DNA from: an uncultured Elusimicrobia bacterium
GTDB taxonomy: Bacteria > Elusimicrobiota > Elusimicrobia > Elusimicrobiales > UBA9959
Length of the DNA: 62,947 bases
Direction: 5' to 3'
Assembly (NCBI GenBank): GCA_903879915.1
Contig: CAIRNJ010000058.1
Span: 1 to 62,947, forward strand
Shown one piece after another: positions 12,101-57,938 of the stretch. How positions within the stretch are numbered: the stretch's first letter is position 1; each line of letters opens with the position of its first letter. Position numbers and translations under genes: made by a program. A model generated the notes under the pieces. That model saw only the letters and a list, made by a program, of their open reading frames with translations, ran no database searches and had not been told where the DNA came from.

Positions 12101-15100
12101 GTATTGGCCACGGGATCGTATGCCTCATTTGTGTTGCTGTATCCCCCGCTGTAGCCGCCTACGGCGTAAAGTTTTCCGCCTATTATCCCTACTGCCAGAT
12201 CAGGGCGCTCCGTAGGCATCGCCGCTTTTGTCAGCCAGGCATTGCTCACCGGGTCATACTCCTCATTACTCACCCCGGCGCCCGTGTCGCCGCCGCCGCC
12301 CACCGCGTACAGCTTGCCGTTTATTACTCCCGCCGCCAGCTGATCGCGCCCGGTGGGCATGTACGCTTTCGTGGTCCAGGAGTTTAAGGCAGGGTCGTAT
12401 TTCTCGTTCAGGCTCGTCCATCCGAACATTCCGCTGGTGAAGCCGCCAACAATATACAGCTTGCCGTTTATCACGCCCGATGCCGTATAACTGCGGGCTG
12501 TGGGCATCACCGTTTTCGACGTCCAGTAATTTCCCGCAGCCCCCCAGGCGCCATAGGCCGCCCCTGTGGTTACATTCACTCCGGATATCCCGCGCTCCAG
12601 CCCGGTGAACGCGGGGGTGGCGGCGTAAGCGGAGGCGGTTATTGAATTACTGGTGACTTCGTCAAAGTAAACCGAGGTGGGCGCTTCTATCAGCGTCACC
12701 GTAGAGCCGAAAGACGCCCACTCGGTGGGAGACCCGGCGCGGTTAAGCGCGTTCACGCGCAGGTAATAAGTGGTATTCGCCGAAAGCCCTGAGAACGGCA
12801 CGCTGGTGTTCAGTGTCTGGCTTGAGAGCAGCGTGGGCGTAAAGCCCGCATTGGTAGATACCTGCGCGTTGTATACAGTATCGCTGGCATTACCGTTGGG
12901 GTTCCACGCGGCTGTTATGGAATAGGTCGAGACCTGTGTAAGCGGCTGCGGCACGGGCGGATTCGCCAGGGTAACGGTGGAACCGAGCGCAAGCCAGGAA
13001 TGATCCGTAACGCCTAAACTATTGTACGCCTGCGCGCGGAAATAATACGTAGTGTTGGCCGTTAAGCCAGTGGTGGCAAGCACCAAGGTGAAGGTTGTGG
13101 CGGGAGACGACGCCCCGAGGAAATCCGGCGAAGTTGAAACCTGTATCTTATAGCTGGCGCCGGGACCGTTGAAACCGCCGGCCTCCGTGCCGGAAGACCA
13201 GCTTACGGTAACGCTTGAAGCGAAGACATCCGTAAATACCAGTCCGCTGACCGGCAGCGTGGCTACCGCCAAAGTATATGTGGTAATGGGTATAGACCAA
13301 TCGCTCTCCGCCCCCGCCAGGTTGCGCGCCTTGGCTTTGAAGTTGTACGGAGTGTTAGGCTTCAGCCCGGTGAACGACACCGCCACGCCGGGAGTATATT
13401 CCTCGTTGGTATTTAAGAAAGACCCCGCCCCATCACTCCCACCCATCACATACAACTTGCCATTAATTACAGCCACAGCTAAACCGCTCCGCGTGGTAGA
13501 GATTGCCGCTTTTGTCACCCACGCATTAGCGATCGGGTCATACTCTTCGTTATTGTTTAAATACCCGCCATTATATCCACCTAAAGCATACAACTTACCA
13601 CCTATTACTCCGGCTGCTAAAGTCATACGTGCTGTGAGCATTCCCGTTTTGGTAGCCCATGTATTTAACACAGGGTTATACACCTCGTTGGTATTCAAAT
13701 AAGTAAGCCCAGTGGGAGTACCGCCAACGGCATAGAGTTTGCCTTGAATATTAACTAAAGCGAATTCTCTGCGGTTGCTTGGCAAAGATGTTCCCTCCCA
13801 CCAGGTGTTTAAAATCGGATCGAAGCGCTCATTTTTATTTGTCGCATCAGGGCCACAATTTGTGCAACCGCCCATTACAAAGATTTTATCTCCGACAACA
13901 GCAGCGGCAGTAACATTCCGCCCCGTTGGCATCGAGGCTTTTGTTGCCCAAGAGTTGGTGAGTGGGTCATATTCTTCGGTCTTATTGCTGGCGCTACCAG
14001 TCCACCCACCGAACACATATATTTTGTTTGCTACAACAGCTACAGAAACATTGCTCCGGGCTGTGGGTAACACTTTTTTTGTCGCCCAGGTGTTGGATAC
14101 AGGGTCGTATTCTTCATTGGCGTTTGAGTGGCCGCCGTCGATATTCCCACCCACCGCGTATATCTTACCTCCAACGACTGCCGCACCAAATCCGTGCCGG
14201 GCCGTAGGCATTTCTTTTTTCGTCGTCCAATAATTCCCGGTCGAGCCCCACACGCCGTAAGCGCCGCTGGTAGTAATATTCACGCCGGAAAGCCCGAGCT
14301 CCATGCCGGTAAAGGTTGCGGATGACACATAGGCGGAGGCCACTATAGTGGCAGTGCCGATTTCATCAAAATACACATCGGTCGGAGGCTCTATTAAAGT
14401 GGCCACCGTGGCGCCGTTGGACAGCGCGCTGTAATTGCCCGCGTCGTCTTTGGTCCACAGCCGGAAGTAATAGCTGGTATTGGCCGCCAGCCCGCCCAGC
14501 GTATAATACTGGCTGGTTCCCGGGGTAACGCCTGTGGTCGAAATATTTACCTGCGCCAGGGACGTGGACCAGCTAGCGGCGCTGTAGGAAGAGTATTGTA
14601 TGGTGAAAGTAGAATTATTCAGCACGCCGTCCGCGCCATCGTCGCCCGGAGCGGTCCAATTCAATATAATCGTGCCTGTAGAAACACCACTATACCCCAG
14701 ATCCGCCGCAGCCGCGGGAGGAATAGTATCCATAGTGCCGCTCTCGCCAGATTGGGCTGTCACACCACCTGTGCCGCCCAACAACTGCGCGGTTCCGGCA
14801 AATCCATTTATTCCCCAAATGCGTCCACCAGCGCCGCCGCCGCCGTTCCCTGTTGTACCTGTTCCGCCTGCGCCGCCGTCAGCGCGAACAGTGCCGCCGC
14901 CGGTTATTGGCGCTGCAGACAATAACCAGACCCCGCCGCCAGCGCCGCCGCCGCCGCCATACGCGCCGCTTATCCCTGCGCCGCCGTTCGCTGATATTGT
15001 TCCGTTTATATTTACCGTTCCGCTGGCATGAATGTTAACAGCACCGCCACCTACACCGCCGGCAACGCCGTTACCGCCGCCGCCGCCTGAACCAAGGTCA

Positions 15101-18100
15101 GCGTAATCGGCCCCTGCCCCGTAAGCTAAGCCTCCGGCGGTTCCGCTATAACCGGTTCCGCCGACTCCGCCGTAGCCGCCGCCACCGCCGCCATAACTTG
15201 CGCTGCCGGTGCCGCCGCCGGTCCCAAAGCCGTTCACCCCAGCGGTTCCGCCAGCATAGCCCAGCCCGTCCACGGTAATGCTAGAACCGGCCAGCATATT
15301 CATGCTCCCCAGCACGTTCAGATTTACCGCGTAAAGCAAGGTGCCGGAATTAACCGCATGAGTGAGCAAAGACCCGCTTTGCATACTGATATTTCCAATA
15401 GTCAGTGGAGTTGCGCTCTGCTGCCGTAAAGTGGCTCCAATATTCAAAGCCACGGAGCCGCCGATGGTCATACTGCTCACATTTAAAGTGGCTCCGGTCA
15501 CGGTCATATTGCTGCTTACTGTCATAGTCGTCACGTTTAAAGCAGCAGCGCCGATCAGAGCAAGATCGCCGCCAACGGTCATCCTGGTAACCGTTAACGT
15601 GGTATTGTCAGTCACAGCCAGACTGCCGGGAATGGTCAATGTGGATACCGTAATGGTATTCGTGTTTGTAAAAGTTTCGCTCGACGTGACCGCAAGGTTT
15701 TCGAGGGAGGAATTCAGGATGGCATTATTCAGGGTTAAGGTACTTACGCTCAAAGAAGCCGCACCAACAATGGCGGTTGAGAGCGCCGTAGCGTAGTTGG
15801 GGATATTATTTCCGTTTGAAACTATCAATTGGGTCTGTTCGGCGTTGGAAAGATAGATCGTCCCTGCGCCGGCATAGCCTGTAGAGCCATTCACCGAAAC
15901 AGCGTTCATTGTAAGATTAGAATTATTGGTTCCGCTGACAAGAACCGCTATCCTCCCGCCGCCTCCGCTGCCGCCATCGTAACCAGTCCCTCCACCGTTG
16001 ACGTTTAAAATGCCTGTTCCAGAAAGATCGCCTGCCGCAATATTAATTGTTCCGCCAGCGCCACCGCCAGTATAACTTGCACCGTCATTGACACCATTGG
16101 CTGAGACACATCCATCAACATTGAATGTGCCAACCTTTAGGATCACAGCGCCACCGCCGCCAGCTCCTTTGCTGCCCCCTCCGCCTCCGCTGCCCAGGTC
16201 GGTTGGATTGGCAAGCAAATCATAGGCGGCCCCGCCAGAAACACTCGAGTTCGCCCCCTGTCCTCCATGTCCGCCTCCAGATCCATGGAGCCCGTTTACA
16301 AGGCCTTTCCCGGGCCCATAGCCGTTCGCGTAGCCTAAACCATCCACAGTGATGCTGGAGCCGGCCTGCAGATCGAAAGTATTTACTACTTTTAAGTTCA
16401 CCACATATTGCATAGTTGCGGAGTTGGAACTGTGGGTAAGAAGAGAGCCGGAATACATCGTCAGCGTAGAAACAACCACCTGCTCTGTGGTGTTCAGCGC
16501 CAGCGTGGCGTTGGGATAGATCATTACCGTCCCAGTAGAAACAGCAGTGCCTGTGGAAAGCAATAAAATCGGTGAATTAGCTCCCTGCTCGTCGCCCAAG
16601 GCAAGCGATTTGAAGGCGACAGGAGGATTGGTCGCGTAGGTTACAACCAGGACAGCCGCATTAATTGTCACAGGATCGGTTGAAACAGGCACGGCCCCAT
16701 TGTCCCAATTAGCGGGGTTATTCCAGTCTCCCCCTGAAGGGCCCACCCAGGTTTGGCCGGGTGAACTTAAAGTTGTGGTTGACCCCAAGCTTGTGAATGC
16801 CGTAGCGATAATGCCTTTTCTTATTGCCGCCGTTCGCGCATAATATAGCGTGTTGCCAGTCAAGTTAGTGAAAGCGGCCGTTGACTTATAGGTTCCGGAG
16901 GAGATGATCCCGGCAGTGAAATCCGGCTGTTTTGAGATTTCCACCCAATATTTCGTGTCGGCCGGATTGCCGTTCGGACCCCAGGTAACACTGACACTGG
17001 AAATGTAAACATTAGGGAAAGCGGTTAAAACTGCTGCGGGAGCCGGAGCCAGCGGGTCGTAGGATGTTCCGGCAAAACCAGCGGCGCCGCCATTGCCGCC
17101 CCCGCTTCCCCCACTTGCGGACATTGTCCCGTCAAAACCCGCGGCGCCGCTTACGCGTCCGCCTGCACCGCCGCCGCCGCCACGGGCAGAGCCTGTTCCT
17201 CCATTGCCTCCATTGACCTCAATAACTCCATTTCCAGCCAAAGCCCCGGAGACGTTGATGCTTCCACCGCTACCACCACCGCCGCCATAAACCCCGGCTG
17301 CACCGGCATTCCCATTGGCTTTAATAGTCCCGTCGAACGTTGCGAGGCCGCCAACATTAAGGGTGATAAAACCTCCGCCGGCGCCGCCTGCAACTCCGTT
17401 ACCACCACCACCACCGCTGCCCAAATCATTGGGGGTTGAAAGTGACCCATAGCCGATTCCTGCGCTGGTTCCCCCGCCTCCTGAACCTCCCAGATCTCCG
17501 TAGCCGCCTCCGCCGCCACCATAGGAAGAGTTTCCACTGCCATATCCGGGCCCATAACCGTTCAGTCCGGCAGTTCCGCCCGCGTAGCCCAAGCCGTCCA
17601 CAGTTATAGTAGACCCCGCCAGCATGGTCATGTTCCCTATAACGTGTAGATTAACCGCGTAACGCAACGTGTCGGTGTTAGCTGTATGGGTGATCAAAGA
17701 TCCGCTCTGCATTGTAAGGCTTCCCATGACCAATGCCGAGGTGCTCTGCTGTTTTAATGTGGCGCCCTCGCTCAAGGTCAGATTGCCGCCGATGGTCATG
17801 CTGGTTACATTCATGGCCGTATTTTCAGCCAAAACGATATCGCCGCCGACTATCAGAGTGGACACTGTAACGGTGTTCATGCTGGTGAATGTCTCACTAG
17901 ATGTGACCGTTAATGCGACCATAGTAGAGGTGAAGACCGAGTTGGTCAGGCTCAAGGTACTTACGCTCAACGAGGCCGCTCCCACGATGGAGGTTGAGAG
18001 CGTCGTTGCGTAAACTGCTGTGTTGCTTCCGTTAGACACTATCAACTGGGTCTGGCCGGCATTGGAAAGATATATCGTCCCCGCAGCGGCGTAATCTGTC

Positions 18101-21473: not shown

Positions 21474-21576
21474 ATACTCTCCGCGTCTACCGCACCCGGC
21501 TGGGGCACTTACTACGCCCGTTACCTTTCAGACCGAAACAAATGCTGTATCACCAAATTTCCTGCCATTAGAAAAA

Positions 21577-21637
21577 GTAGCCTGTCCCCTTTTCCCTATT
21601 GCACCCAAGCCCTGGGAGTAAAGGGGCAAGGGGCTAC
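21577..21637. repeat. inverted repeat starting at the stop codon of the FGE-fold protein
   Basis: The arms GTAGCC-t-GTCCCCTTT (from 21577) and AAAGGGGCaaGGGGCTAC (to 21637) pair imperfectly over about 17 bases. A small inner palindrome (CCCAaGCCcTGGG, 21604-21616) sits in the loop. The right arm includes the TAG stop. There is no T-run as expected of a terminator. A hairpin close behind the variable region is typical of DGR targets, which is why it is recorded. The rest of 21474-21633 shows no gene. Confidence 0.55.
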
Positions 21638-24600
21638 TGCGTCCTAGCACCGCGCACGCCTACATCAACGTCACGAAAAACGAACGCCCAGCCAGCGGCG
21701 TAGCGGACGGAAATACGTGCGACCGCCGCGTTGCCGTCCCACGCGCCGCCGCGCACGCCGTAACCCGCACCTCCGGGCGCGGGCCATTCCGCCGGCCATG
21801 ATACCGTACCGGTACCATTTAAAGGCATACTGGTATACGCACTATTCAAGGTAAACTCCCACACATTACCGGCCAGATCAGCTATCCCCCACGGCGAAGC
21901 GCCCGTTTCAGCCGTTGTTCTGTATACATCACCGCTCATATACCGCCCCACATCCAGCACTTTTTGAGATATGCCGGCCACAAGATAGTTCAGGTAATTG
22001 CGGATATGTTTGCCGCCCTCATTGGGCGGGGTATAAGTTGCCGTTCCCGGCGCGGTGTCGCCCCAGGGGTAAGAACGCGCGTCAGGCGCTAAATCACGCC
22101 CGGCTTTCTCCCATTCCATCTCGGTGGGCGGACGCAGGCCGGCCCAGCTCATATAGCTCCAGGCGTCCGCTACCGACAGGTAGTTCTTGGCCGCGTTCTT
22201 ATCCACAGCCGCATATTTATTGGGATAGGTACCGGCGTTAGTTATATTATGGCCATAGTCAACCGTTGCCTCATGCCGCGCCGCGGCCGTGGACGAATGC
22301 ACCGTATTAAGGAACTCAGCGTACTGCCCTTGCGTTATTTCATAGCGGCCTATATAAAAACCGTTGTAGCCGTTGGGCCACCCCACCGGCGCGCCTGAGG
22401 GAAGATTATTAGTGCCGTCGCCGGTGGTTGTTCCCGGTCCGGTAATTGTGGTTTGTAACCCCCCGTTGTAGTTGGAAGGCGTATCATAGTTGATATTGTC
22501 ACTGCCGCCGCTGCTATACACAAAACTGCCGGCCGGCACTTTCACCATAGATATAGCGAACACCTTCACCTGCGCGTTGGCGGCGCTCACGCCGTCCGCG
22601 GCGTAATTCCACACTACGCTGGCCGTGGCCTGCCAGAGAGCGTAATTCACCAGATGGTTCACGAACGCGCCTTTTTTGTCGGAGGCTATCAGCAGCGCGC
22701 CGCCTTCCCCCACCCCGCCGCCGTTGGCCAGCGTGGCGTGGTTCCAGGTGCCGTCCGCCCCGGCCTGCGTGGAGAATTTAACGAATATCCAGTCGGCCGT
22801 ATTATAATTTCCGCCGCCAGGAGAAGTGCCGGTGGAAACATTGTTCTCTCTTATATTGAAATTCACCTTAACGCCCAGGCCCGTGGCGCCGGAAAGCGAA
22901 ACGTCCGTAACGGCCAGGTTGTTCACCGGCGCCTCGGCGGCGGCCTCGCCCGTAGTGAAGGAGGCCGTGGGCGACCAGTCCCCGAAATAGCTGATGTCGG
23001 TGGTTTTGGCGCGTACGCGCCAGTAATACGGCGTGTTGGCGCTCAGCCGGAAAGCGCCCGTGCTGTAGAACACGAAAGTGGCGGTACTGTTGTATAAGTA
23101 AGCGTCGCTCGATATAGAAACAACTCCGTCCTGCCCGCTGAACGCGCCCGAGCTGGGGAACAGCTGCGCCGAGCTCTGGTCAAAGTCGTAAAGCGGCGCA
23201 TCGCCCTGTGAATCCATAGTGAGCTGCGTATCCACCTGGTAGTTATATTGCACCGCCGAAGCCGCGTCGGGAGTTTTTACGTGCAGCCCCGGGCTCTGCG
23301 GAACGCCGGCCGCCGTATCCGGCGGCGCCAGCAGCAGCGGAATAGCCGCCAGCGCGTCCGCCCAGTTCACTTTCAAGCCGGGGTCATAGTCGCGGGCCTC
23401 GCCCCACATGGGGCCCAAAGACGCTACGGTCTTCCGGAATACGGGGGCCAGTAAGGCGTCGCTCCCGGCCACGCGCACGTTATAAGCGGAGGTGTAGCCA
23501 TCCGAGGGGCCGAAGGTTACATCGTAGAAAGTAGCGCCCGAGGCAAGGCTGCGCGCCGTAATATAGGTATTAGTGCCGGCGGCAAAACCCAGGTAGTCAA
23601 AGGTGGAAGAAGAAATAGCCACGCCGGCCGAACCGGACAACTGTATGCCGTCCTGGTCCATATGCGTGAACGAGGAGTGTTCGGCCGTGAACGCGCCGGA
23701 GTCCACGAAAGTATAATAGGTGGAACCCGCGTTCAGCCAGTCTATCAGGGTATGGGCCGTGCCGTCGTCCTTACCGCGAAGGACTATGCCGCCCGTCGAC
23801 GCCACCTCAAGTTTTGAACGGCCGCTGTTATAGGTAGAGGCCGCGGGCCCGAACAGCAGCTTCTTCTGCACATTGGTGTCGCTGGAAGCGGCAATAGTCA
23901 CAAAATCCAGCATATCTCCCGCGTTGCGCGTGCCGCCGGGATTGAGCGTGAACGAAACTTTGCCGCTGCTGAAGCCGCAGGCGCCCGGGCAGGTGAACGG
24001 CGAACCGATAACGCCCGAGGACGACCCCGTAACGGTCCAGGAGTTGCCGCCGGTATGTTTAACCGTTATAAGTTCCGAGAGCGCCGCGCCGTCGCCGGTT
24101 ACAACGTTCGTGATGGAATGCTCCGTGCCCCGCATCAGCCTGGGCGCGGTATTGGTGGAAACATACAGCCGCTGCGAGTAATCCAGCGCAAGGGTGGAGC
24201 CCGCCAGCTGGTAATTGCCCCAGATACGCACCGTGCCGGAATCCATCCCGGCGTCGAACACCTGGTTATAAGAAATAAGCGAAGCCCCGGGCACATCAAG
24301 GCCGGCATTCCCTATCCCCACGGAAGGGTTCACGCGCACGCCTTTCAAGATCATAGTCTCGGCACTGCCTCCGGGCACAAGGTATATCTCGGCGATTGTA
24401 TTCTTTAAACTTACGCCGGCTGCGTTATACCCCATATTTCCGTCAATAAAGGTATTGCCGGATGAATTACTGGCGTAAACACCGTAGAAATTGGAGTAGA
24501 TATTGTTCCCGCTCACTGTGTTGTTGGAAGCATTATCCAACTCCATACCCAGGGCTGAATTGAGATAAAAGCTATTCCCGGTCAGGGTGTTGTTGAAAGT

Positions 24601-27600
24601 ATTCCAGAGAAAAATACCGTCATTCGAATTGGAGTAGGCATTATTCCCGGTCAGGGTGTTGTTGGAGCCGGTGAGGTACATTCCGTTCTGTGAATTGGAG
24701 TATAAATTGTTCCCGGTCAAGGTGTTGTTGGAGGAATTACTGAGGGAAACACCCTCGCTTGTATTTGAGTAAGCATAATTCCCGGTCAGGGTGTTGTTGG
24801 AGGAACTGTTGAGGAAAATCCCGGCGTTCGCATTGGAGCAGGAATTGTTCCCGATCAGGATGTTATTATCGGAAGCGGCATTAAGTTGAATGCCCCGGGT
24901 TGAATTGGAGTATAAATTATTCCCGGTCAGGGTGTTATTGGAAGAGGCGTTGAGGAATATCCCGTAGAGCCCGTTGCGTATGGTCGAACTTGAAATTGAG
25001 CCATGCGTCAGGGCGCCGTCAAAGGTTATGCCGTATTTTTCGGTGCCGCCGGCGCCGTTGCCGAAATAAGCGAATTCGCCGTAGGCAAGCGCGAAGCTGG
25101 TGGTGTTCCGGGCAAGATTTTGTATATACGCGTTATCTGTGTCACCGGATGTTCCCAGGGACCGCACCAGCACATTGCGCGTAAGATTACCCACTATAAT
25201 GGGGCTGGTGGAAGATAGCGTCCGGGCCGTGCCCAGCGGCTCTGCGGCCGACCAACTGACGGTGTTTGCCCCCCCGGTATGGTCCACGCTCGTAATAGTG
25301 CGGCTTGAGGTGGTTTCATTACCCCACCCGGAGGTAGGACCTATGGTAATAACGTCACCCGCCTGCCAGCCGTAGGTGGAGGTGGAGCCGTAAACCGTCA
25401 GACTGTTAGCCCCCGCCAGGATATTTGCACTGGCGAAAGCGTACGGCGTTTTAGTTGATCCGCGCACGGTAAAGTTACCGCCGTTGTTGACTATCAGGCC
25501 GTACTGCCCGGCATAAGTGCCCGAGGCCAGCACCAGGTGGGCAATGAGCCCCTCCGGAATGGTGCTGTCCTCCGTGCCGTAATCCAGCGTGCCGCCGAAG
25601 TTCACGTAAATATCGCCCCCCGTCAAAGTCCAACTCGAGCTCGCCGCCCGGCTGGCCTTCAGAGTGCCGTTAATGGTGGTGGTGGACGAGGCCGCCGTCA
25701 TAATGTCCATGGTCACGGTATGCCCGGCGGTTATCGTTACCGGGTCGTTGGCCGTGGGAACCGCACCGGTATCCCAGGTATCCACGGCGGACCAGTCGCC
25801 GGTCTGCACGCTGACGACCGGCCACTCCACGTAGCCCAGCGGGTCGTTCTCGTGCGCCGCGCCGGCCTTCCCGCCCGAGGCAGCCCTCATGCTCAACCGC
25901 GAACCCGGGCCCAGGGCACTGCCGTTCACGTTCACTGCTATATCCGCGTAGTCAAACCCTATGCGGGTAAAGGTAGAGACAAAAGTGCCGCCCAGGAAAT
26001 TTATAGCCGTGGCGCCGTACGTAAGGTCCTGGAAGGCCATGCTGGTAATGGAAAGCGCGGCCCCCGTGTTCTGCGCGGCTATGTTCAGGCCGTATGCCCC
26101 GCCGGCAATGGCATCTGAAGAAAGCTCAATAACGCCGGAATTATCCTTATCCAGGTAAATGCCCGCGCCCTGCGCGCCGCCCGCCACGGTGCTGGAAGAA
26201 AGTGTTAAGTTGCGGCTGCCGCCGGCCAGCCACAGACCCGAGCCGTAAGAATAGTTGGAGACCAGCATGCTGTCGCCAAGTATGGCGCCCGTGGATGCGA
26301 ATACATAGACCGCGGTGGAGCCCTGTATATAGTTAGTAACGGCGGTATTGGTGGAGGCCTGGTTGAAGTAAAGCCCGGCGCCGGCCGCGCCGGTCACGGT
26401 GCTGAAACTGAGCTCGTTGAATTTGGACGCGGCGCCGGCGAAGACCGCGCCGTAATAGCCGGAGAAAAAGCTGTTCTTCGCGGTATTGTAAGCGCCGCTG
26501 CTGTAAAAACCGAAATACCGCGCGCTGTACGCCATGCTGGTGAAAGTGCTGAAACTTATCTCGTTATAACTGGAGGCGGCGTCCATGGAAACGCCGTTGG
26601 CGCCGCTCATTATAACCTCGCTGATTCTGGTGTTGGAGGCGCCCACCAGGGCGATATGAATTGTTGCGCTGGAGCCGTTCGTGGCGCCTGTGCCGGGCGT
26701 ACCGCCGCGGATAGCGAACGGGGTCTGCTCTAGGCTGTTCCCCGAGCCCTGCACATATACCGCGTAGGCTTTGCCGCCGGGGCTGACATTGACGCCGCCC
26801 TCGCCCGCGCTGCCGCCGCCGGCGCTGCTGCCGCCGCCGCCATTGCCGGCGGTACCGCCGGTTATGGTAAAGGAACTCTGCTGGACCTTGTTATTAGCGC
26901 CTTTAAGATAGACCGCGCAAAAATCCCCTCCGACGCCGTTGCTGAAGCTGCTGCTGCCACCGCCGCCGCCCGCGCTGCCGCCGCCGCCGCCGTCGTAAAT
27001 GCCGTTGCCTCCGTTCCCGCCGGTTAGCGTAAAAGTGCTGTTGCTGACGGTATTGTTCGAACCCTGGATATATACCACGTAGGCGCTGCCGCCGTAATTG
27101 TTGACGCCGCTGGCGCCGCCGCCGCCGCCGCCGCCGCCGCTGCCGCCGCCGCCGGCCATGTTGCTAGAAACGGAACCGCCGGAGCCGGTTGCCGAAACCC
27201 TGAGCCCTGAAAGCGCATTGGCGTCGCTGTTCAGCAGGTACACTACATACGCGCTGCCGCCGCGGCTGTAGTTGGCATTGGAGGAGCCGCCGCCGCCGCC
27301 GAAAGCCGCGCCGCCGCCGCCGCCGCCGTTGCCGTTGCCGCCGTTGCCGCTGGCCGAAACAGTGATACCGGAGAGCGTATTGGAAGAACTGTTGGCCAGA
27401 TACAGCATATAAGCGCTGCCGCCGGCTCTCGCGCTGGTGCCGCCGCCGCCGCTGCCGCCGCCGCCCCCGCCGGAGCCGAAGCTGGTAAAATTAGCGCCGT
27501 TGCCTTTTGCCGTGATAGTGAGCAGGGAAAGCGTGTTGGAAGAACTGTTGGCCAGGTACAAGGCGTAAGCGCTGCCGCCGTCGCTGTACTGTTCCGCGCC

Positions 27601-30600
27601 GCCGCCGCCCCCCCCGCCGCCATAGCCGCCAATATCGCTGCTATACCGGCCGCCGCCGCCGCCGCCGGGGAGAATGACCGTGGACGACAGTTTATTGCCG
27701 GAGCCCCCCGAGATATAGACGCCGTACGCCGCGCCGCCGTTGGTCGTAGCGGTAGGCGTATTCCCATTCCCACCCGTTATCGTGCTCAGCGAAACCTCGT
27801 TATTGCCGCCGTATATAGCCAGCACAGTAGCGGACAAGGTTGCAGCACCGTACGGGGTGGTTTTATACCCGTTATTGGTGATTGAACTTTGAACCACGCT
27901 ATTATTGGAGCCGGACAGGATAAGCGCGTAAGGAGAATAGGCCACTGACACCGTTGACCCGCTGATAGCGGTGAAGCTCGATACCCATACCCCGGCCACG
28001 CCAACGGTGCTCCCGCCGATTATCGCCACCGAGCTTAACTGCGCGTACGCGGAAGAAGCGTAGATGGCGTACGACGGCGTATTCGTGGAAATAATATTTA
28101 TCCCCTGCACGGTAACGCTGTCGTTCAGCAGCTGGAACGCGGCGGTGGATGCGGCAGGCGGATTCACCACCGGCGCCGAGCTGACGAAAGTTGGGTCGGC
28201 CATTATTATCAGCCGGTTGCCGTCATTCGTGAACCCTTGCACCGTAACCTGCTCGGAATAAGTCTCCGTGTCGCGTATGACCACACAGGTGGTGGTGCTT
28301 AAAGAAACCGGCAGCGCATTAACCGCGGCCTGGATGGAGTTGAAAAGCGTTAAACCTTTTTTTCCGACACTCGCCGCCACCCCGCACCCGGCGGGCAGCG
28401 CGAAAGTGTCCCCCAGGATCGCGTAAGGCCCGGCTCTTCTGACATTGCCGGCCATATCCGAGACCGTGAAGATCACCTGGTTGGTGGCGCCGCAGGGTGT
28501 TGCCCCGTTGCAGGTCTGCGTATTGGTGGACTGCGCAAGGTTAAGCGAAGCCGACAGGGTCTGCGCCGAGGTTGTGCCGTCGGCACCGGTAAGGCTTGCG
28601 GTAGAGGGCGCCATTTCCGCCGCCTTGCCGTTGGGGTAGGTTCCCGCGTATAACTTGCCGTTGTAACCGGCCAGCGAGAACACATAGGACGCCCCCGTTA
28701 TTACCGCCTTGCCGCCGTTGGCGGCGTTCCAGGTTTCCCCGTCGAATACGGCCGCCTTGCCGCCGGGATCGGTTCCCGCGTATAGCTGGCCGTTGTAAAC
28801 CGCCAGCGCCCGCACATTGGACGCCCCCGGAACCACCGCGTTGCCGCTGTTAGCAACGCTCCAGGCCGCCCCGTTAAATACGGCCGCTTTGCCGAGATCT
28901 GTTCCCGCGTATAATTTGCCGTTGTAAACCGTAAGCGCCCGCACATACGACGCCCCCGCAACCACCGCGGTGCCGCCGTTAGAGGCGCTCCAGTTCACTC
29001 CGTCGAAAGCGGCAACCTTCGCTTCGGGTTCGGTTCCCGCGTATAGCTTGCCGTTGTAAACCGCCAGCGACAGCACCTCCGTCCCCCCCGCCACCACCTC
29101 GCTGCCGCCGTTAGAGGCGCTCCAGGGTGTCCCGTCGAACACGGCCACTTTGCAGCCGGGATAGGTTCCCGCGTATAACTTGCCGTTGTAAACCGCAAGC
29201 GAATTTACATTCGTCTCCCCCCCGATCACAGCGCTGCCGCTGTTAGCCGCGCTCCAGGCGGTTCCGTTAAATACGGCCACCTTGCCGTCGGGGCTGGTTC
29301 CCGCGTACAGCTTGCCGTTGTACACAGCGAGAGAAAGCACACTGTCCGCCCCCGAGATTACCTGGCCGCCGTCGCTCCAGGAGGCTCCATCAAATACAGC
29401 CACCTTGCCGCCGGGATTGGTTCCCGCGTATAACTTGCCGTTGTACGCAGCAAGCGAAACCACATAGTTTTCGTTCGCGATCAGCTGATTGCCGTTGTTT
29501 GACCCCGCCCAGCCGGCGCCCTCCAGCCAGTTAGCCCCGGCCGTGGTGGTGTATTTTACGCTGAACCCGCCGGTAAGGCCGCCCCAGTCGTGCCCGTCGC
29601 CGCCGCCCCGCAGCGCCGAAGTTGAAACCGCAAGCCCGGCAGCCAAGTCCTGCACCGTTATCTGCGCCGTAACTCCCGGGGCAAGATCCAGGAACTGCCC
29701 CTCGTTGAACGACCCGCCGGTGGAGTTCAGAACCTTAAACCCTGAAGCGGCCGGGCTTGAATAATCCGTGATAAAAGAGAAAATTGAAGACCACGGGCTG
29801 GCATCTGAGGTTAAGCCATCGACAGTTTTAACGCGCCAGTAATAAACCGCGCCCTGCGCAAGCGTGACCGTTGAAATATAAGCCGCGTCAACCGTGACAG
29901 CGGCAGTGTTCGCCACTACCGCCGGCGTGGACACGTTTATGACAATATTGCCCGCGCTGAAATCCGCATCGCCATTTGAAACCTGCAGAACAAAATATGA
30001 ATTAGCGCCAAGCTGGCTGACCGTGGTAGTGCTTGGCCCGGTCCAGGTGAAATTGGGATCAAGAGCTACTGCCGCCTGGTCCGGAGGGAACTCCGGGATT
30101 GAAACCGCCACGAATATTTGGCTTCCAGACCATTCCACATAGCTGTGAGTATCGTTTGCATAAACGGGGCCGGCCCTGGAACCAGAATAATCGCGCATGG
30201 TTATGCGCGAGCCGGTGGTCAGCGGACTGGCATTCACGTTTATGGCTATATTGGAGGTGCTGAACGCTACCCCGGTAAAGGTTGAAACAAAATTCCCGCC
30301 CAGGAAATTGATGGCCGTGGCGCCGGGGGTCATGCTTTGGAAGGTGATACTGCTAATTGAAAGCGCCGCCCCAGCCGCCTGCGTAGCGATATTCACGCCA
30401 TATTTTCCGCCGGTTATGGTGTTGGAAGAAAGGTTAATAACGCCGGAATTATTCTCGTCGAGAAAAATACCCGCGCCTTGTGTGCCGCCGCTAAAGCTAC
30501 TAGTGGAAACCATCAGGTTCATACTGCCACCGGCAAACCCGAGGCCATAACCCGCGGTGTTAGTAGCCACAAATACGCTCCCGCCGATAATTGTACCGGT

Positions 30601-33600
30601 GGAGCCAGAGATATATACCGCGGTAGAGCCCTGAACATATGAATCTGTTATGGTATTAGCTGAGGAGGCAGTAATAGAGATAGCGTCGGATTGGCTGGTT
30701 ATAGTGGAATAGGAAATCTCGTTACCGTTGGCACCATCGAAAATATTTACGCCTGAACCGCTGGTTCTGGTTATAAAATTCTGTGTTATTGTGTTAAAGG
30801 AGGCACCGCTTATACCAAGAGCACTAAAAACGAGGACAGGAGTATTACTGGTTATGGTGGAGTAGGAAATAGTGTTGTAGTCCGAACCTGTATCGATGTA
30901 CGCGCCGTAGCCCCCCGAATTGAAAAGATAGGAACGCGTAACAGTATTTGAACCAGCATTGAGGAGGTAGAGTGCGACAGCGCTATTACTGGTTACTGTG
31001 CTAAAAGACACCGTATTGTTTTCACCGTCAATTTGAAGTCCCCAGGCAGATTGTGCCGCGATGTTTGAATAGGATACTGTACTCCAACTTGAGATCTCTA
31101 TCGCCACCCCGGTAATCTTTCCCCCCGAAACAACGTTCACGCTTGAGATATTCACCGAAGCTGAAGAGGACAACATACCGTAGGACACTGAATTCGTGGA
31201 AATAATGTTTATCCCCTGCACGGTAATACTATCGTTCATTATTTGGAAAGCCGCGTTGGACGCTTCAGGCGGATTGACCACAGGCGCCGAGCTCACGAAA
31301 GCGGGGTCCGCCATTATAATAAGCCGATGGCCGTTGTTGGCAAAGTTGCCTATCGTTACCTGCTCGGAATAGGTTTCTGTATCCCGCATCACCACGCAGG
31401 TGTCGGCGGTCAGGTTGTGGTCCAGAACATCAAGCGCCCCTTGTATGGTATAGGAATCGCTGTCCCCGGCTTTGTTGATGTTTTTGCTGTCGGGGCCGCA
31501 ACCCGGAGGAAGAGCATAGATGTGCGTAACCAGCACGCTTACGGTCCGCTGAACTGGTACTCCGGGTTTTCCGTCTGACACGCCGCAGGTTACTGAATAT
31601 GCGCCGGTGGTTACGGGCGCGGTCCAGTTCACTGACGCGCCGCTGCCGGTTATTGTACTGCCCGCCGGCGCCGCCCAACTGTATGTTAAATCATCCGCGT
31701 CGGGGTCAACCGCCGTGCAGGCCAGCGCCGAGATGGCTCCTTTACCCACAACAGCCGGACTGGCCGTTAACGCGATTATCTCCGGCGGGCTGTTCACCAG
31801 AATCTCCACGGTCCCGGATGTGCTGCCATGCCCGGCAACACTCGCCTGACAAGTGACTTTATACGTGCCCGTGGCGCTGGGCGCGGTCCACGAGAACGCA
31901 GAGCCTGTCCCGGAAGCGGTGCCGCTGGCCGCGCTCCAGGAATATAACAGAACCCCGTTATCCGGTGCGGTCGCCACGCACACGACATTACTTATGCCGC
32001 CCTTGGCTATCATGTCCGGCGTAGCGGTAAGATTTGTTATTATCGGGCCGGTTGCCACCTGCACCTGCACACTGCGCTGCACCGACGCGCCGGGCTTACC
32101 GTCGGACACCTCGCAGTCTATGGTGTATGTTCCGGTAGACCCAGGCGCGGTCCACGCCACGATTACACCACTGCCTGTTATGTTGCCACCTGAAGCTGTC
32201 CAGTTATAAGTTAATTCATCCCCGTCGGGGTCCGCGGCAGCGCATTGAATGGAAGATACCGCCCCCAGGGAAACCAACTCCGGTTCGGCCGTTACCACGC
32301 CTATCGAAGGAGGACTGTTCACCATGATCTCTATATCCCTGGTATCGCTGCCGTGCCCGGCAACACCCGCCTCGCAGGAAACATGGAACGTTCCGGTAGC
32401 GTTAGGCGCCGTCCAGGAAGCTGATGAGACATATTGGACCAGGGTACCGCTGGCCGCGCTCATGGCATATGTTATTTCTCCGTTATCCGGCGCCGTGGCC
32501 ACGCACACTACGCTCACCGCGCCGTTCCTGGCAACCGTGCCGGGCGTAGCGGTCAGGCTGGTTATCTCAGGCAGTTCATTGACCCAAGTTACTTTCGCTG
32601 CGGGATCGTAATCGTAAGCCTCGCCCCACAAAGGGCCCAAAGACGCCACGGACTTCCGGAATACCGGGGCCAGCGCGGCATAGCTTCCATCCACGCGCAC
32701 ATTGTAGGCGGAGTAACCAGCCGGAGGGCGCGATAAATTGAACTCAACGTTATAGAAAGTGGCACTGGCGGTGAGGTCGCGCGCCGTAATGTAGGCGTTG
32801 GTGCCGGCGGCGAAACCTAAGTAGTCGAAGGTCGAAGAAGAAATAGCCACACCGGCCGTACCCGAAAGCTGTATGCCGTCCTGGTCCATGTTGGTGAACG
32901 AGGAATGCTCGGCGGTGAACGCGCCGGAGTCAACGAAGGTGTAGTAAGTAGTGGAGGCGCTCAGCCAATCCACCAAGGTCGGGACGGTGCCGTCGGTTCT
33001 GCCTTTCAGTACTACCCTGCCGGACGCAGCCACTTCCAGCTTTGAGCGCCCATTGTTGTAGCCGGCAGCCGCTGGGCCGAATAGGAGTTTTTTCTGCTTG
33101 TTTTGATCTTGCGAGGCGGCTATAGTAACGAAATCCAGCGAATCGCCCACGTTCGGCGTACTTCCCACGCTGAGCCGGAAACCGACCTTAGTAACGCCAA
33201 AATCGGCAGCCCCGGGAACGCCCTGTGATATTGTTCCCATCTGGCCGGAAGAGGAGCCTGTGACCGTCCAAACATCACCGCCGGCGTATGTAACCGTTAT
33301 AATTTCAGAAAGCGTAGAAGAATCGTCCGTAGTTACATTGTTAATGGAATGCTCCGTGCCGCGCATCAGCTTAGGCGCGGTATTAGTGGAAACATATAAC
33401 CGCTGCGCGTAATCCAAGGCCAGGGTAGAGCCCGCCAGCTGGTAATTGCCCCAGATACGCACCGTACCGGTATCCGCGTCCTGGTTATAAGAAATAAGCG
33501 AAGCCCCGGGAACATCCATACCCACAGTGGAAATCCCCACCAGCGGGTTCACGCGCGTACCTTTAAGGATCAGGGTCTCAGCGGGAGTATCAGGATAAAA

Positions 33601-35607
33601 GTATATCTCGGCGGTGTTATTACTCAAACTGCTGCCGGAAACATTGTAACCGACATTACCGTCAATAAAAGTGTTGCCTGATGAATTTTGAGCGTAGATG
33701 CCGTAGGCATTGGAGTAGGAATTGTCCCCGGTCAGGGTATTATTGTTGGAGGCACCGATGTAAATACCGACGCTGGAATTGGAGTAGAAATTGCTCCCGG
33801 CAAGGATGTTGTTGTGGGAGATGTTATCAAACAAAATGCCGTGACTTGCATTGGAATAGGAATTATTCCCGGCAAGGGTGTTGTTGCCGGAAAAACTGAG
33901 GTAAATACCAATACCAGAATTTGAGCAAGAATTATTACTGGTCAGGGTGTTATTGGAGGAGTCATTAAGGTAAATACCGTAAGTAGAATTGGAGTAGGAA
34001 TTATTACCGGTCAGGGTATTATTGGAGGAGCTATAGAGGTAAATACCGTAAGTGGAATTAGTGTAGGAATTGTTACCGGTCAGGGTGTTATTAAGGGCAC
34101 CGTTGAGGTAAATACCGTACAAATTAGAGTAGGAATTATTTTCGACCAGTGTGTTATTGTAAGAGGCGTTGAGGTATATTCCGTAGAGGCTGTTACGCAC
34201 GGTTGAACTTGAAATTAAACCTTTTGTCAGAGCACCGTCAAAGGTTATGCCGTATTTGCCATTAGTGTTAGCGCCGAGGTAAGCAAATTCTCCGTGGATA
34301 AGCACGAAACTTGTAGTATTCTGCGCCAGATTTAGTATATATGCGTTGTCTGTGCCGATAACGGTTCCGGAGGACCGCACCAGAACATTGCGCGTGAGAT
34401 CGCCAACAATAATGGGGCTGGTGGAGGACAGCGTCCGGGCCGTGTCCAGAGGTTCCGCTGCCGACCAACTTACGGTGTTAGAGCCACCGGTATGGTCTAC
34501 GCTTGTAATTGTGCGGCTTGAGGTGGTTGAATTACCCCATCCGGAGGTAGGACCTATGGTAATAACGTCACCCGCCTGCCAACCGTCGGTGGAGGTAGAG
34601 CCGTATACCGTCAGGCTGGTAGCTCCTGCCAAAATACTGGCGCTGGCAAACGAGTATGGCGTTTTGGTGGAACCCCGCACGGTAAAATTGCCGCCGTTGT
34701 TGACGATAAGCCCATATTGCCCGGCCGTTGCGCCTAAGGCAAGCACCAGGTGGGCATTAATGGCGGTCGGAATGGTGTCATCCTCCGTGCCGTAATCCAG
34801 CGTGCCGCCCGGGTTCACGTTAAGGTCGCCCCCCGTCAGCGTCCAGCTCGAACTTGCTATCCGGCTGGCCCGCACCGTACCGTTGATAATTGTGGAGGAA
34901 GAGACTGCGGTAAGAACATCGATGGTTACAGTATGCCCGGCCGCGATAATAACGGTGTCTGCCGCGGTAGGGACCGTGCCCGAATCCCAGGTGCCGGGGT
35001 CTGACCAGTCGCCGGATCTTGCGCTGGTAATAATAAAGCTCCAACCTTCATTGTTATTCCCGGAATCAAGCGAGCTCTTTGCGCTTACGGTATTAAAAAG
35101 TGCGCTGGAATCTTTTACATCCGCGAAGCTTACGGTCTGCGGGCCGTTCTGGAAACTTATGGACCACCTGCTGGCTTCAACGGAAGACCGCAATTTTATC
35201 AGGTTCCCGGCGGAACCGGTAATTGTGAATTGATTGGTAACCGTCTGAGTGGAGCCGGCGGCGAAATTTATAGTTTTCCCCGCCGCTACTGAAACCAGAG
35301 TGTAGAACGTGGTGTCCCCGGTAATAGCGGACGTTTCCCCGCTGTTTTCAAAGGCTACCGTTGAAGTGCCGGCGTTGAACGCGCCCGAATTGGTCCAATT
35401 CCCTGAAACGCCTATTTTTGAAGTACCACCGTTCAGCACTCCGCCCGTATTAATCGTTATGGTTGAGATCCTGAATTCAGCATTGTTATTGAAAGTAACG
35501 GTAAGGGTATTAAGAGTAAGATCGGCAAAAGCGCGGCTAACCAGCAAAGTCAATAGCGCCATTGCCGGCAAGATCACGGATAAAGTTTTCTTCGCTTTTA
35601 TCGCCAT
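21634..35607 (-). CDS. 4657-residue secreted beta-helix/Ig/propeller protein ending in an FGE (C-type-lectin) fold; candidate DGR target
   Basis: ATG at 35607 is chosen because it opens a clear signal peptide (MAIKAKKTLSVILPAMALL, cut near SRAFA) with GAAGAAAG upstream. Longer in-frame starts overlap the preceding gene. Domains in order: a G8-like/beta-helix region with 'SGDWSDPGTWDSGTVP'; NosD-like parallel beta-helix repeats (~460-670); three or four Ig/PKD-like domains (~1000-1360); a second beta-helix; a seven-repeat propeller (~2035-2330); a Gly-rich region (~2610-2950); a repeat of the G8/NosD block (~3250-3730); an FN3-like domain; and a C-terminal FGE-sulfatase fold (~4345-4656) with MVKVPAGSF, GLRPPTEMEWEKAG, YPWGD, DLAGNVWEF and RGGAW. 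The FGE active cysteine is absent, so the domain probably binds ligand. It is surface exposed by inference and unusually long. Confidence 0.88.
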   Translation of the reverse strand: MAIKAKKTLSVILPAMALLTLLVSRAFADLTLNTLTVTFNNNAEFRISTITINTGGVLNGGTSKIGVSGNWTNSGAFNAGTSTVAFENSGETSAITGDTTFYTLVSVAAGKTINFAAGSTQTVTNQFTITGSAGNLIKLRSSVEASRWSISFQNGPQTVSFADVKDSSALFNTVSAKSSLDSGNNNEGWSFIITSARSGDWSDPGTWDSGTVPTAADTVIIAAGHTVTIDVLTAVSSSTIINGTVRASRIASSSWTLTGGDLNVNPGGTLDYGTEDDTIPTAINAHLVLALGATAGQYGLIVNNGGNFTVRGSTKTPYSFASASILAGATSLTVYGSTSTDGWQAGDVITIGPTSGWGNSTTSSRTITSVDHTGGSNTVSWSAAEPLDTARTLSSTSPIIVGDLTRNVLVRSSGTVIGTDNAYILNLAQNTTSFVLIHGEFAYLGANTNGKYGITFDGALTKGLISSSTVRNSLYGIYLNASYNNTLVENNSYSNLYGIYLNGALNNTLTGNNSYTNSTYGIYLYSSSNNTLTGNNSYSNSTYGIYLNDSSNNTLTSNNSCSNSGIGIYLSFSGNNTLAGNNSYSNASHGILFDNISHNNILAGSNFYSNSSVGIYIGASNNNTLTGDNSYSNAYGIYAQNSSGNTFIDGNVGYNVSGSSLSNNTAEIYFYPDTPAETLILKGTRVNPLVGISTVGMDVPGASLISYNQDADTGTVRIWGNYQLAGSTLALDYAQRLYVSTNTAPKLMRGTEHSINNVTTDDSSTLSEIITVTYAGGDVWTVTGSSSGQMGTISQGVPGAADFGVTKVGFRLSVGSTPNVGDSLDFVTIAASQDQNKQKKLLFGPAAAGYNNGRSKLEVAASGRVVLKGRTDGTVPTLVDWLSASTTYYTFVDSGAFTAEHSSFTNMDQDGIQLSGTAGVAISSSTFDYLGFAAGTNAYITARDLTASATFYNVEFNLSRPPAGYSAYNVRVDGSYAALAPVFRKSVASLGPLWGEAYDYDPAAKVTWVNELPEITSLTATPGTVARNGAVSVVCVATAPDNGEITYAMSAASGTLVQYVSSASWTAPNATGTFHVSCEAGVAGHGSDTRDIEIMVNSPPSIGVVTAEPELVSLGAVSSIQCAAADPDGDELTYNWTASGGNITGSGVIVAWTAPGSTGTYTIDCEVSDGKPGASVQRSVQVQVATGPIITNLTATPDMIAKGGISNVVCVATAPDNGVLLYSWSAASGTASGTGSAFSWTAPSATGTYKVTCQASVAGHGSTSGTVEILVNSPPEIIALTASPAVVGKGAISALACTAVDPDADDLTYSWAAPAGSTITGSGASVNWTAPVTTGAYSVTCGVSDGKPGVPVQRTVSVLVTHIYALPPGCGPDSKNINKAGDSDSYTIQGALDVLDHNLTADTCVVMRDTETYSEQVTIGNFANNGHRLIIMADPAFVSSAPVVNPPEASNAAFQIMNDSITVQGINIISTNSVSYGMLSSSASVNISSVNVVSGGKITGVAIEISSWSTVSYSNIAAQSAWGLQIDGENNTVSFSTVTSNSAVALYLLNAGSNTVTRSYLFNSGGYGAYIDTGSDYNTISYSTITSNTPVLVFSALGISGASFNTITQNFITRTSGSGVNIFDGANGNEISYSTITSQSDAISITASSANTITDSYVQGSTAVYISGSTGTIIGGSVFVATNTAGYGLGFAGGSMNLMVSTSSFSGGTQGAGIFLDENNSGVINLSSNTITGGKYGVNIATQAAGAALSISSITFQSMTPGATAINFLGGNFVSTFTGVAFSTSNIAINVNASPLTTGSRITMRDYSGSRAGPVYANDTHSYVEWSGSQIFVAVSIPEFPPDQAAVALDPNFTWTGPSTTTVSQLGANSYFVLQVSNGDADFSAGNIVINVSTPAVVANTAAVTVDAAYISTVTLAQGAVYYWRVKTVDGLTSDASPWSSIFSFITDYSSPAASGFKVLNSTGGSFNEGQFLDLAPGVTAQITVQDLAAGLAVSTSALRGGGDGHDWGGLTGGFSVKYTTTAGANWLEGAGWAGSNNGNQLIANENYVVSLAAYNGKLYAGTNPGGKVAVFDGASWSDGGQVISGADSVLSLAVYNGKLYAGTSPDGKVAVFNGTAWSAANSGSAVIGGETNVNSLAVYNGKLYAGTYPGCKVAVFDGTPWSASNGGSEVVAGGTEVLSLAVYNGKLYAGTEPEAKVAAFDGVNWSASNGGTAVVAGASYVRALTVYNGKLYAGTDLGKAAVFNGAAWSVANSGNAVVPGASNVRALAVYNGQLYAGTDPGGKAAVFDGETWNAANGGKAVITGASYVFSLAGYNGKLYAGTYPNGKAAEMAPSTASLTGADGTTSAQTLSASLNLAQSTNTQTCNGATPCGATNQVIFTVSDMAGNVRRAGPYAILGDTFALPAGCGVAASVGKKGLTLFNSIQAAVNALPVSLSTTTCVVIRDTETYSEQVTVQGFTNDGNRLIIMADPTFVSSAPVVNPPAASTAAFQLLNDSVTVQGINIISTNTPSYAIYASSAYAQLSSVAIIGGSTVGVAGVWVSSFTAISGSTVSVAYSPYALILSGSNNSVVQSSITNNGYKTTPYGAATLSATVLAIYGGNNEVSLSTITGGNGNTPTATTNGGAAYGVYISGGSGNKLSSTVILPGGGGGGRYSSDIGGYGGGGGGGGAEQYSDGGSAYALYLANSSSNTLSLLTITAKGNGANFTSFGSGGGGGGSGGGGTSARAGGSAYMLYLANSSSNTLSGITVSASGNGGNGNGGGGGGAAFGGGGGSSNANYSRGGSAYVVYLLNSDANALSGLRVSATGSGGSVSSNMAGGGGSGGGGGGGGASGVNNYGGSAYVVYIQGSNNTVSNSTFTLTGGNGGNGIYDGGGGGSAGGGGGSSSFSNGVGGDFCAVYLKGANNKVQQSSFTITGGTAGNGGGGSSAGGGSAGEGGVNVSPGGKAYAVYVQGSGNSLEQTPFAIRGGTPGTGATNGSSATIHIALVGASNTRISEVIMSGANGVSMDAASSYNEISFSTFTSMAYSARYFGFYSSGAYNTAKNSFFSGYYGAVFAGAASKFNELSFSTVTGAAGAGLYFNQASTNTAVTNYIQGSTAVYVFASTGAILGDSMLVSNYSYGSGLWLAGGSRNLTLSSSTVAGGAQGAGIYLDKDNSGVIELSSDAIAGGAYGLNIAAQNTGAALSITSMAFQDLTYGATAINFLGGTFVSTFTRIGFDYADIAVNVNGSALGPGSRLSMRAASGGKAGAAHENDPLGYVEWPVVSVQTGDWSAVDTWDTGAVPTANDPVTITAGHTVTMDIMTAASSTTTINGTLKASRAASSSWTLTGGDIYVNFGGTLDYGTEDSTIPEGLIAHLVLASGTYAGQYGLIVNNGGNFTVRGSTKTPYAFASANILAGANSLTVYGSTSTYGWQAGDVITIGPTSGWGNETTSSRTITSVDHTGGANTVSWSAAEPLGTARTLSSTSPIIVGNLTRNVLVRSLGTSGDTDNAYIQNLARNTTSFALAYGEFAYFGNGAGGTEKYGITFDGALTHGSISSSTIRNGLYGIFLNASSNNTLTGNNLYSNSTRGIQLNAASDNNILIGNNSCSNANAGIFLNSSSNNTLTGNYAYSNTSEGVSLSNSSNNTLTGNNLYSNSQNGMYLTGSNNTLTGNNAYSNSNDGIFLWNTFNNTLTGNSFYLNSALGMELDNASNNTVSGNNIYSNFYGVYASNSSGNTFIDGNMGYNAAGVSLKNTIAEIYLVPGGSAETMILKGVRVNPSVGIGNAGLDVPGASLISYNQVFDAGMDSGTVRIWGNYQLAGSTLALDYSQRLYVSTNTAPRLMRGTEHSITNVVTGDGAALSELITVKHTGGNSWTVTGSSSGVIGSPFTCPGACGFSSGKVSFTLNPGGTRNAGDMLDFVTIAASSDTNVQKKLLFGPAASTYNSGRSKLEVASTGGIVLRGKDDGTAHTLIDWLNAGSTYYTFVDSGAFTAEHSSFTHMDQDGIQLSGSAGVAISSSTFDYLGFAAGTNTYITARSLASGATFYDVTFGPSDGYTSAYNVRVAGSDALLAPVFRKTVASLGPMWGEARDYDPGLKVNWADALAAIPLLLAPPDTAAGVPQSPGLHVKTPDAASAVQYNYQVDTQLTMDSQGDAPLYDFDQSSAQLFPSSGAFSGQDGVVSISSDAYLYNSTATFVFYSTGAFRLSANTPYYWRVRAKTTDISYFGDWSPTASFTTGEAAAEAPVNNLAVTDVSLSGATGLGVKVNFNIRENNVSTGTSPGGGNYNTADWIFVKFSTQAGADGTWNHATLANGGGVGEGGALLIASDKKGAFVNHLVNYALWQATASVVWNYAADGVSAANAQVKVFAISMVKVPAGSFVYSSGGSDNINYDTPSNYNGGLQTTITGPGTTTGDGTNNLPSGAPVGWPNGYNGFYIGRYEITQGQYAEFLNTVHSSTAAARHEATVDYGHNITNAGTYPNKYAAVDKNAAKNYLSVADAWSYMSWAGLRPPTEMEWEKAGRDLAPDARSYPWGDTAPGTATYTPPNEGGKHIRNYLNYLVAGISQKVLDVGRYMSGDVYRTTAETGASPWGIADLAGNVWEFTLNSAYTSMPLNGTGTVSWPAEWPAPGGAGYGVRGGAWDGNAAVARISVRYAAGWAFVFRDVDVGVRGARTQ
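21637..21775 (-). other. candidate DGR variable region at the end of the FGE-fold domain
   Basis: The last ~45 codons read YGVRGGAWDGNAAVARISV, then RYAAGWAFVFRDVDVGVRG and ARTQ-stop. DGR target lectins end in this way: a fixed GGxW and G(A/V)RG frame with scattered variable positions between. From GTC at 21708-21706 onward most codons are NNY (TAC, GCC, GCT, GGC, TTC, GTT, TTT, CGT, GAC, GTT, GAT), as expected when AAY codons of a template are randomised at A. The FGE cysteine position is Ala. Template repeat and reverse transcriptase are not in the window. Confidence 0.5.
24430..25010 (-). repeat. NosD-like parallel beta-helix repeats, second array
   Basis: Repeats of ~24 residues of the form SNNTLTGNN-x-YSNS-x-GIYL. 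This array and the flanking ~750 bases up to ~25760 match the array at 33590-34230 and its flank (to ~35000) closely in DNA, including the passages 'TSGWGN' and 'RTLSSTSPIIVG'. Confidence 0.8.
28620..29500 (-). repeat. seven-unit propeller repeat (YNGKLYAGT)
   Basis: Seven units of about 40 residues each, with cores YNGKLYAGTNPGGKVAVF, YNGKLYAGTSPDGK, YNGKLYAGTYPGCK, YNGKLYAGTEPEAK, YNGKLYAGTDLGK, YNGQLYAGTDPGGK and YNGKLYAGTYPNGK. Seven blades make a standard beta-propeller. The DNA copies are close, which shows recent expansion. Confidence 0.8.
33590..34230 (-). repeat. NosD-like parallel beta-helix repeats, first array
   Basis: About eight copies of a 23-24-residue unit with cores NNTLTGNNSYSNSTYGIYL. 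The Asn ladder and the hydrophobic GIYL strand are typical of PbH1/NosD repeats. It is paired with the array at 24430-25010. Confidence 0.82.
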
Positions 35608-35644: not shown

Positions 35645-36244
35645 CTAATCCCCAATAGCGATCCAATTACAGGTATATGTCCCACTTGCCGAACCAGTGG
35701 CAGAGTTGAACAGGTATAAAGTGAAACCAGTCGTGGTAATATTAAGGGCAGTAGGATTAATGGCATCAACATATGATCCCATCGAGGTGCCTGTTATCAT
35801 AACTACCGGGACAGAAGAAAATGTATATCCAAAGTTCACAGTACCAAAAGAAGTACCGTACTGTTGGGGTAGAGATACACTGACCGACACTGTACTATAG
35901 CGTACCTTAAAGTTTTGACCAGCAGCAGTTCGTATGGCTCCATTTACATCAAGCGCTGCTCCCGGCGAAGTAGTTCCGATGCCGACACTGCCGTCTTTAA
36001 CAACGAACGTGGAGCCGCCCACTGAAAATCCCGAGCCGGCAACTGTGACGGTCCCGAGAGTTACGATATTTCCTACAGAATCAAAACCGGTAACAGTCTT
36101 GGCGGATTTATCCTGGATGACGAGTTTTGTCGACCCGTCTGCTGAATTAAGTTTTAGCTCCCCGTCTTCCGAAAACGCGTAGTTGGCAGCGCCTAAAACA
36201 AGGCACAGCCCGAATAAACCATTGACCAGTATCGTTTTTTTCAT
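35645..36244 (-). CDS. small secreted fibre protein with H-type-lectin-like C-terminus
   Basis: Start ATG at 36244 (MKKTILVNGLFGLCLVLG) has AGAGG 7 bases upstream and opens a signal peptide ending near YAFS-ED; the in-frame ATG 15 bases earlier has no ribosome site. The 199-residue protein has a short beta-rich stalk (GELKLNSADGSTKLVIQD), the fibre motif SVGIGTTSPGAALDVNGA, and a C-terminal ~75 residues (FGYTFSSVPVVMITG, NITTTGFTLYLFN, CNWIAIG) that match the pattern of H-type lectin/gp-tail domains, which bind sugars as trimers. The stop lies 37 bases before the 4657-residue gene, so the two are probably co-transcribed. Carbohydrate binding is inferred from fold resemblance only. Confidence 0.82.
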   Translation of the reverse strand: MKKTILVNGLFGLCLVLGAANYAFSEDGELKLNSADGSTKLVIQDKSAKTVTGFDSVGNIVTLGTVTVAGSGFSVGGSTFVVKDGSVGIGTTSPGAALDVNGAIRTAAGQNFKVRYSTVSVSVSLPQQYGTSFGTVNFGYTFSSVPVVMITGTSMGSYVDAINPTALNITTTGFTLYLFNSATGSASGTYTCNWIAIGD

Positions 36245-36416
36245 ATTATTGCCTCTCATAGGGAACGTTGCTCAAACGCTTAAACACATGGGATTCGCGG
36301 GACAAAACATCCCCGAACCGCGTTTTAACACGGCCCAGAATATCTGTTGCTCTTCCCCGTCTATCCGGCATCATGTTGGTCCAATGCGCCCAAACCGGGT
36401 ACTTTACTTTGCTGTC

Positions 36417-57566: not shown

Positions 57567-57705
57567 AGGATCCTCCTTCCGGAACGAGCTAACGAGCTTG
57601 TACTCTAATAGGATAGCCTGCCGGATGTAAAATACCCAGAGTCAGGAGGCCCAGAGAGAGCCGGTAAATGGACCTATACGCCCCTGGTACCCCCCTATTT
57701 TTCAA

Positions 57706-57917: not shown

Positions 57918-57938
57918 GGCCATCCTGAAAGGATGGCC
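57918..57938 (-). terminator. terminator of tRNA-Gly
   Basis: On the minus strand AGGCCATCC-tttc-AGGATGGCC is followed by a T-run (TTTTTT, 57917-57912), 12 bases after the tRNA's CCA. Confidence 0.88.

Follow-up and report, generated by a model that had tools for sequence, protein, structure and literature searches.

The locus analysed here raises the question of whether the C-terminal tip of a giant bacterial surface protein is the variable region (VR) of a diversity-generating retroelement (DGR), and where the cassette that would rewrite it is located. The window, which is the whole stretch of 62,947 nucleotides that was analysed, constitutes the entire contig C58 of an Elusimicrobiota MAG (G000) that is 99.16% complete with 4.5% contamination, comprises 112 contigs and 3.37 Mb, and is unclosed. 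We consider it likely that the last 40 codons of the giant gene are the VR of a DGR target that is separated from its cassette, the cassette being either lost or missing from the assembly.

The longest open reading frame of the giant gene encodes 4712 residues. A start at 35607, with the N-terminus MAIKAKK, gives 4657 residues and is preferred because of the alignment with the DGR target of a related locus, L011, and because this start is conserved in relatives. The analysis confirmed the earlier note's description of a 4657-residue surface protein with an FGE-type C-terminus (PF03781 FGE-sulfatase, E 5.8e-19; tail RGGAWDGNAAVARISVRYAAGWAFVFRDVDVGVRGARTQ). The sequence profile of the tip domain matches the solved structures of FGE and CalU17, and the VR is positioned at the C-terminus of this C-type-lectin/FGE-fold domain. 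An AlphaFold model of the tip domain, with a mean pLDDT of 29.6, was too poor for a fold search. The last 40 residues of the protein contain no cysteine, and the FGE catalytic cysteine is presumably lost from the tip, as judged by eye against the cysteines of the enzyme. The giant protein contains a big internal duplication of high DNA identity, in which segments 25300-25700 and 34500-34900, about 9.2 kb apart, include G8 and the following blocks. The open reading frame just upstream (35645-36259, minus strand) encodes an H-type lectin domain (PF09458) and overlaps the long form of the giant frame. Two genes downstream, a second giant open reading frame of 5692 residues (2863-19941, minus strand) was without an FGE domain in the genome-wide FGE search. 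Elsewhere in the window, a 106-bp unit forms a tandem array of 2.2 copies with a 96% match (57704-57937) and contains a hairpin, AAGGCCATCC...GGATGGCTTT.

Features of the giant gene and its 3' end, in coordinates of the window
Feature	Position	Strand	Details
Gene for 4657-aa secreted/surface protein	21634..35607	-	Stop codon 21634-21636; signal-like N-terminus MAIKAKKTLSVILPAMALLTLLVSRAFA
N-terminal domain, residues 1-193	35029..35607	-	66% identity to N-terminus of cassette-borne DGR target in L011
Insert relative to L011 target, about 3,900 residues	23344..35028	-	G8 domains, right-handed beta-helix/NosD repeats, ~43-residue repeats (Pfam)
C-terminal FGE-sulfatase (C-type-lectin-like) domain	21637..22566	-	73% identity to DGR target of G050/L011
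Variable region (VR), last 40 codons	21640..21759	-	Base-by-base homology to template repeat of G050:C180 (L011 6647-6766)
AGG codon, candidate IMH core	21643..21645	-	AGG in 14/14 targets, altered in templates
Inverted repeat overlapping/after stop codon, just past VR	21576..21638	-	DNA fold -14.8 kcal/mol, z -2.05, then TTTTT

Relatives of the tip were sought among 149 genomes of the order. The closest non-self match, with 73% identity over 309 residues, belongs to a genome of the same genus (G050:C180, which is locus L011, JAUSCK010000083.1). There, a target of 760 residues is followed within 2 kb by Avd, the template repeat (TR), and a reverse transcriptase (RT). The Avd protein is 117 residues long and scores 110.6 bits against NF033474 (cut-off 80), and it is likewise above the cut-off of PF22296. 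The TR is located at 6647-6766 of L011, and the 327-residue RT has LTSQ and YMDD motifs. Between the VR of G050:C180 and its TR, 17 of 30 template adenines differ, as does one of the 90 other bases, so that 17 of the 18 differences fall on a template A. The window protein is 66% identical to the L011 target over residues 1-193 and 65% identical over the last ~570 residues, with ~3,900 extra residues in between; the two are one and the same protein, enlarged in the window by a long insert. The two loci share the target family, the VR, and the AGG codon near the 3' end of the VR. They differ in that the short L011 target is immediately followed by Avd, TR, and RT, whereas the window has no cassette and its target carries the insert.

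The earlier note had placed the variable feature at 21637-21775; homology to the template delimits about 21640-21759 instead. At codon positions 1 and 2, the window VR differs from the TR of G050:C180 at 21 of 29 adenines and at six of 51 other bases. Outside the VR, 86 of 516 such positions of the domain differ from the G050 target, and Fisher tests against the VR adenines give 5e-8 and 3e-10. The changes in the window, in a region homologous to a VR that has a TR, are thus concentrated at template adenines, the template being that of another species. Neither the G050 nor the G053 template was accepted as the window's own TR, as non-A sites differ at 19 of 90 and 28 of 84 positions, respectively.

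The third bases of the same codons carry a corresponding footprint, with NNY codons of the kind derived from AAY at the variable positions. All 12 window codons at template AAC or GAC columns end in C or T, versus 16 of 28 at other VR columns; pyrimidine third bases of the window VR alone, given the residues, have p = 0.028. The signal becomes visible only if a real template is used to select the codons by homology. The richness in NNY codons that the earlier note described did not hold up: 67% of the codons in the stretch quoted by the earlier note end in C or T versus 63% gene-wide, and the value of the last 25 codons is equalled or exceeded in 30% of gene stretches of that length. General NNY enrichment was therefore rejected as evidence of a DGR, because it does not rise above the gene background. 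Codon pairs that encode different residues were compared between the window and six close VRs: their third bases differ in 19 of 67 cases at template AAC or GAC columns, versus 260 of 397 outside the VR. The six were selected by similarity once the sequences had been inspected, and the counts are non-independent, since the window sequence enters every pair. A pattern in which the first two bases have changed and the third has been kept runs opposite to the usual evolution of codons, and matches the outcome of copying from AAY codons. When the six VRs that have no matching cassette are pooled, C or T is the last base of 32 of 33 degenerate codons, versus 20.2 expected (p 8e-7). Four more divergent relatives (G049b, G030, G048, and G029) have no such excess, with 21 of 28 versus 19.0 expected.

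The 3' end of the VR provides a further mark. The second-last conserved codon, which encodes the last conserved arginine, reads AGG in every one of the 14 targets, versus nine of 136 codons at ten other conserved arginine columns, and AGG makes up 14% of the arginine codons in the same target genes. At this position, the template reads AGT in G050 and AAG in G053, and five of the seven VR/TR pairs of the family found by script have AGG in the VR and an altered codon in the TR. The window VR thus has an IMH-like 3' end that differs from the TR, as seen through the TRs of relatives. According to PMC4891356, which cites Guo et al. 2008, it is a known rule that the IMH of a VR differs from its template copy. 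The AGG difference fits this rule, and the codon may serve as the functional core of the IMH. The inverted repeat at the stop codon may be either a DGR hairpin or cruciform or an ordinary terminator, which its T-run resembles; it is inconsistent among relatives and, being ambiguous with a terminator, was rejected as proof of a DGR.

The cassette itself was sought in the window's own genome. An RVT_1 search, which was positive in three control genomes and in 17 of the 59 family genomes, returned no matches there, and no relatives were obtained with the cassette RT as query. The NF033474 profile detected no Avd in this genome, while giving eight matches above the cut-off in six relatives. A TR was sought in the same genome by blastn, by an N-rich peptide query of the kind that detects the TRs of G050, G053, and G011, and by a degenerate pattern that allowed A at nearly every base and three mismatches; these searches returned only the VR itself. 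No cassette is located within the 21.6 kb downstream of the VR, and the VR/TR-like pairs within the window are only ordinary repeats of unrelated sequence. Among viral contigs there were no relatives of the tip, and RT relatives were at most 50% identical. Of a complete DGR system, namely an RT, a TR differing only at adenines, and Avd or another accessory protein, no component was found in this MAG; its absence is not final because the MAG is near-complete yet unclosed. The near-copy template and DGR-type RT that the earlier note suggested looking for in the genome were thus not encountered by any of these searches. Its proposal of a DGR variable region at the end of the protein is strengthened by the template-adenine and third-base patterns and by a congener in which the homologous VR is accompanied by an intact TR, Avd, and RT; it is largely right about the ancestry of the tip, whereas present activity is unproven.

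Five genomes with homologous targets (G049, G055, G030, G048, and G029) have no cassette, as is the case for the genome of the window. One of them, G049, has three targets in tandem; it comprises about 40 contigs and its completeness is rated at 100%. Since the six cassette-less genomes are 89-100% complete, loss is likely in some of them. Eight Avd-bearing cassettes were found in the family, six of them on contigs of 4.7-16.6 kb (G011, G013, G050, and G053) and the other two on longer ones, of 35 and 58 kb, and the targets of G053_C68, G055, and G049 sit 0.2-3 kb from contig ends. Because most cassettes are on short contigs, failure to bin is a real possibility. Six more DGR cassettes of the same family, with clear adenine-biased VR/TR pairs, are present at L070, L071, L183, L184, L185, and L188 (genomes G053, G011, G013, and G018), and the tails of their targets fall into two or more types, such as those with the endings GGRCART and GFRCGR. 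At L060 (G049:C28) and L066 (G050:C263), three homologous targets of 587-668 residues with very different VRs lie in tandem on a contig without a cassette.

It is very probable that a DGR has rewritten the window VR. The third bases and the AGG codon, which are still intact, suggest that this happened fairly recently, while the absence of a cassette from the genome points to loss. That the tip was never a DGR target, being a non-catalytic lectin of the FGE family in which ordinary selection drives fast evolution of the ligand-facing loop, while DGRs recruited its relatives separately, is unlikely. FGE-fold proteins are common without DGRs, and the four divergent relatives lack the third-base signal; however, ordinary selection does not randomize the first two bases of codons while keeping the third, nor would it be expected to hold AGG at a synonymous site in all 14 targets, and the nearest relative of the tip is borne by a cassette.

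There is nearly an even chance that the cassette has been lost and that the VR, fixed in its last variant, is now inherited like any other domain. The absence of RT, Avd, and TR from the assembly, the five other genomes with homologous targets that also lack a cassette, and the Treponema denticola strains without RT and TR that keep their targets, which are read there as leftovers (PMC4891356), all agree with it. By contrast, the intact pyrimidine third bases and AGG codon require that the loss be recent and have occurred separately in several lineages. The same undrifted third bases, in six close VRs without a matching cassette, argue for recent rewriting in several lineages and thus for a target that is still rewritten in trans by a DGR cassette on an unbinned short contig, plasmid, or phage. 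This is possible, if somewhat doubtful: it agrees with the short contigs that bear six of the eight family cassettes, with the targets near contig ends, and with remote targets known elsewhere (PMC7517822; PMC8144416), but not with a completeness of 99.16% lacking TR and RT, with the likewise cassette-less G049, rated complete, and its three targets, or with the 21.6 kb of cassette-free sequence downstream of the VR. We rank the leftover of a lost cassette a little above the active remote target. A wider form of trans action, in which a cassette outside the chromosomal assemblies, for example on a mobile element, keeps the VRs of the window, G049, G055, G053_C68, and G050_C263a fresh, is decidedly improbable.

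If the rewriting followed the arrangement of the congener, the DGR reverse transcriptase together with Avd would copy the RNA of the template repeat, and template adenines would be copied at random into cDNA. Starting from the IMH site at the 3' end of the VR, the cDNA would then replace it, which would change residues of the lectin-like tip and leave the scaffold the same. In the lineage of the window, the target carries ~3,900 extra residues of beta-helix stalk, with no cassette adjoining it.

Targets separated from their cassette have already been described in Treponema denticola, where strains that lack RT and TR retain targets whose VRs are adenine-biased (PMC4891356). This DGR, of the TvpA type, resembles the window in having surface targets with a C-type-lectin fold that persist in such strains; it belongs to a different phylum, and its matching TR comes from strains of the same species, whereas that for the window is available only from another species. 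Cyanobacteria have remote and remnant DGR targets (PMC7517822), which are similar to the window protein in that their C-type-lectin VR is distant from the RT or has none nearby, and in their multidomain N-terminal parts. By contrast, they are mostly predicted cytosolic signalling proteins, and their DGR is usually elsewhere in the genome (PMC7517822). Mtd of Bordetella phage BPP-1 shares the C-terminal VR and a possible hairpin after the stop codon (PMC3240598), but is a phage tail protein with an adjacent cassette and proven tropism switching. The large survey by Roux et al. states that targets away from an RT would escape detection (PMC8144416). A limited literature search found no DGR study of Elusimicrobiota, the sole co-mention being a fungal-microbiome survey. 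With the window, very large surface proteins of this uncultured lineage join the known DGR targets; targets in the lineage often outnumber or outlive the visible cassettes, and where the RT is missing from a fragmented assembly, they can be recognized by the footprints at the third bases and the AGG codon.
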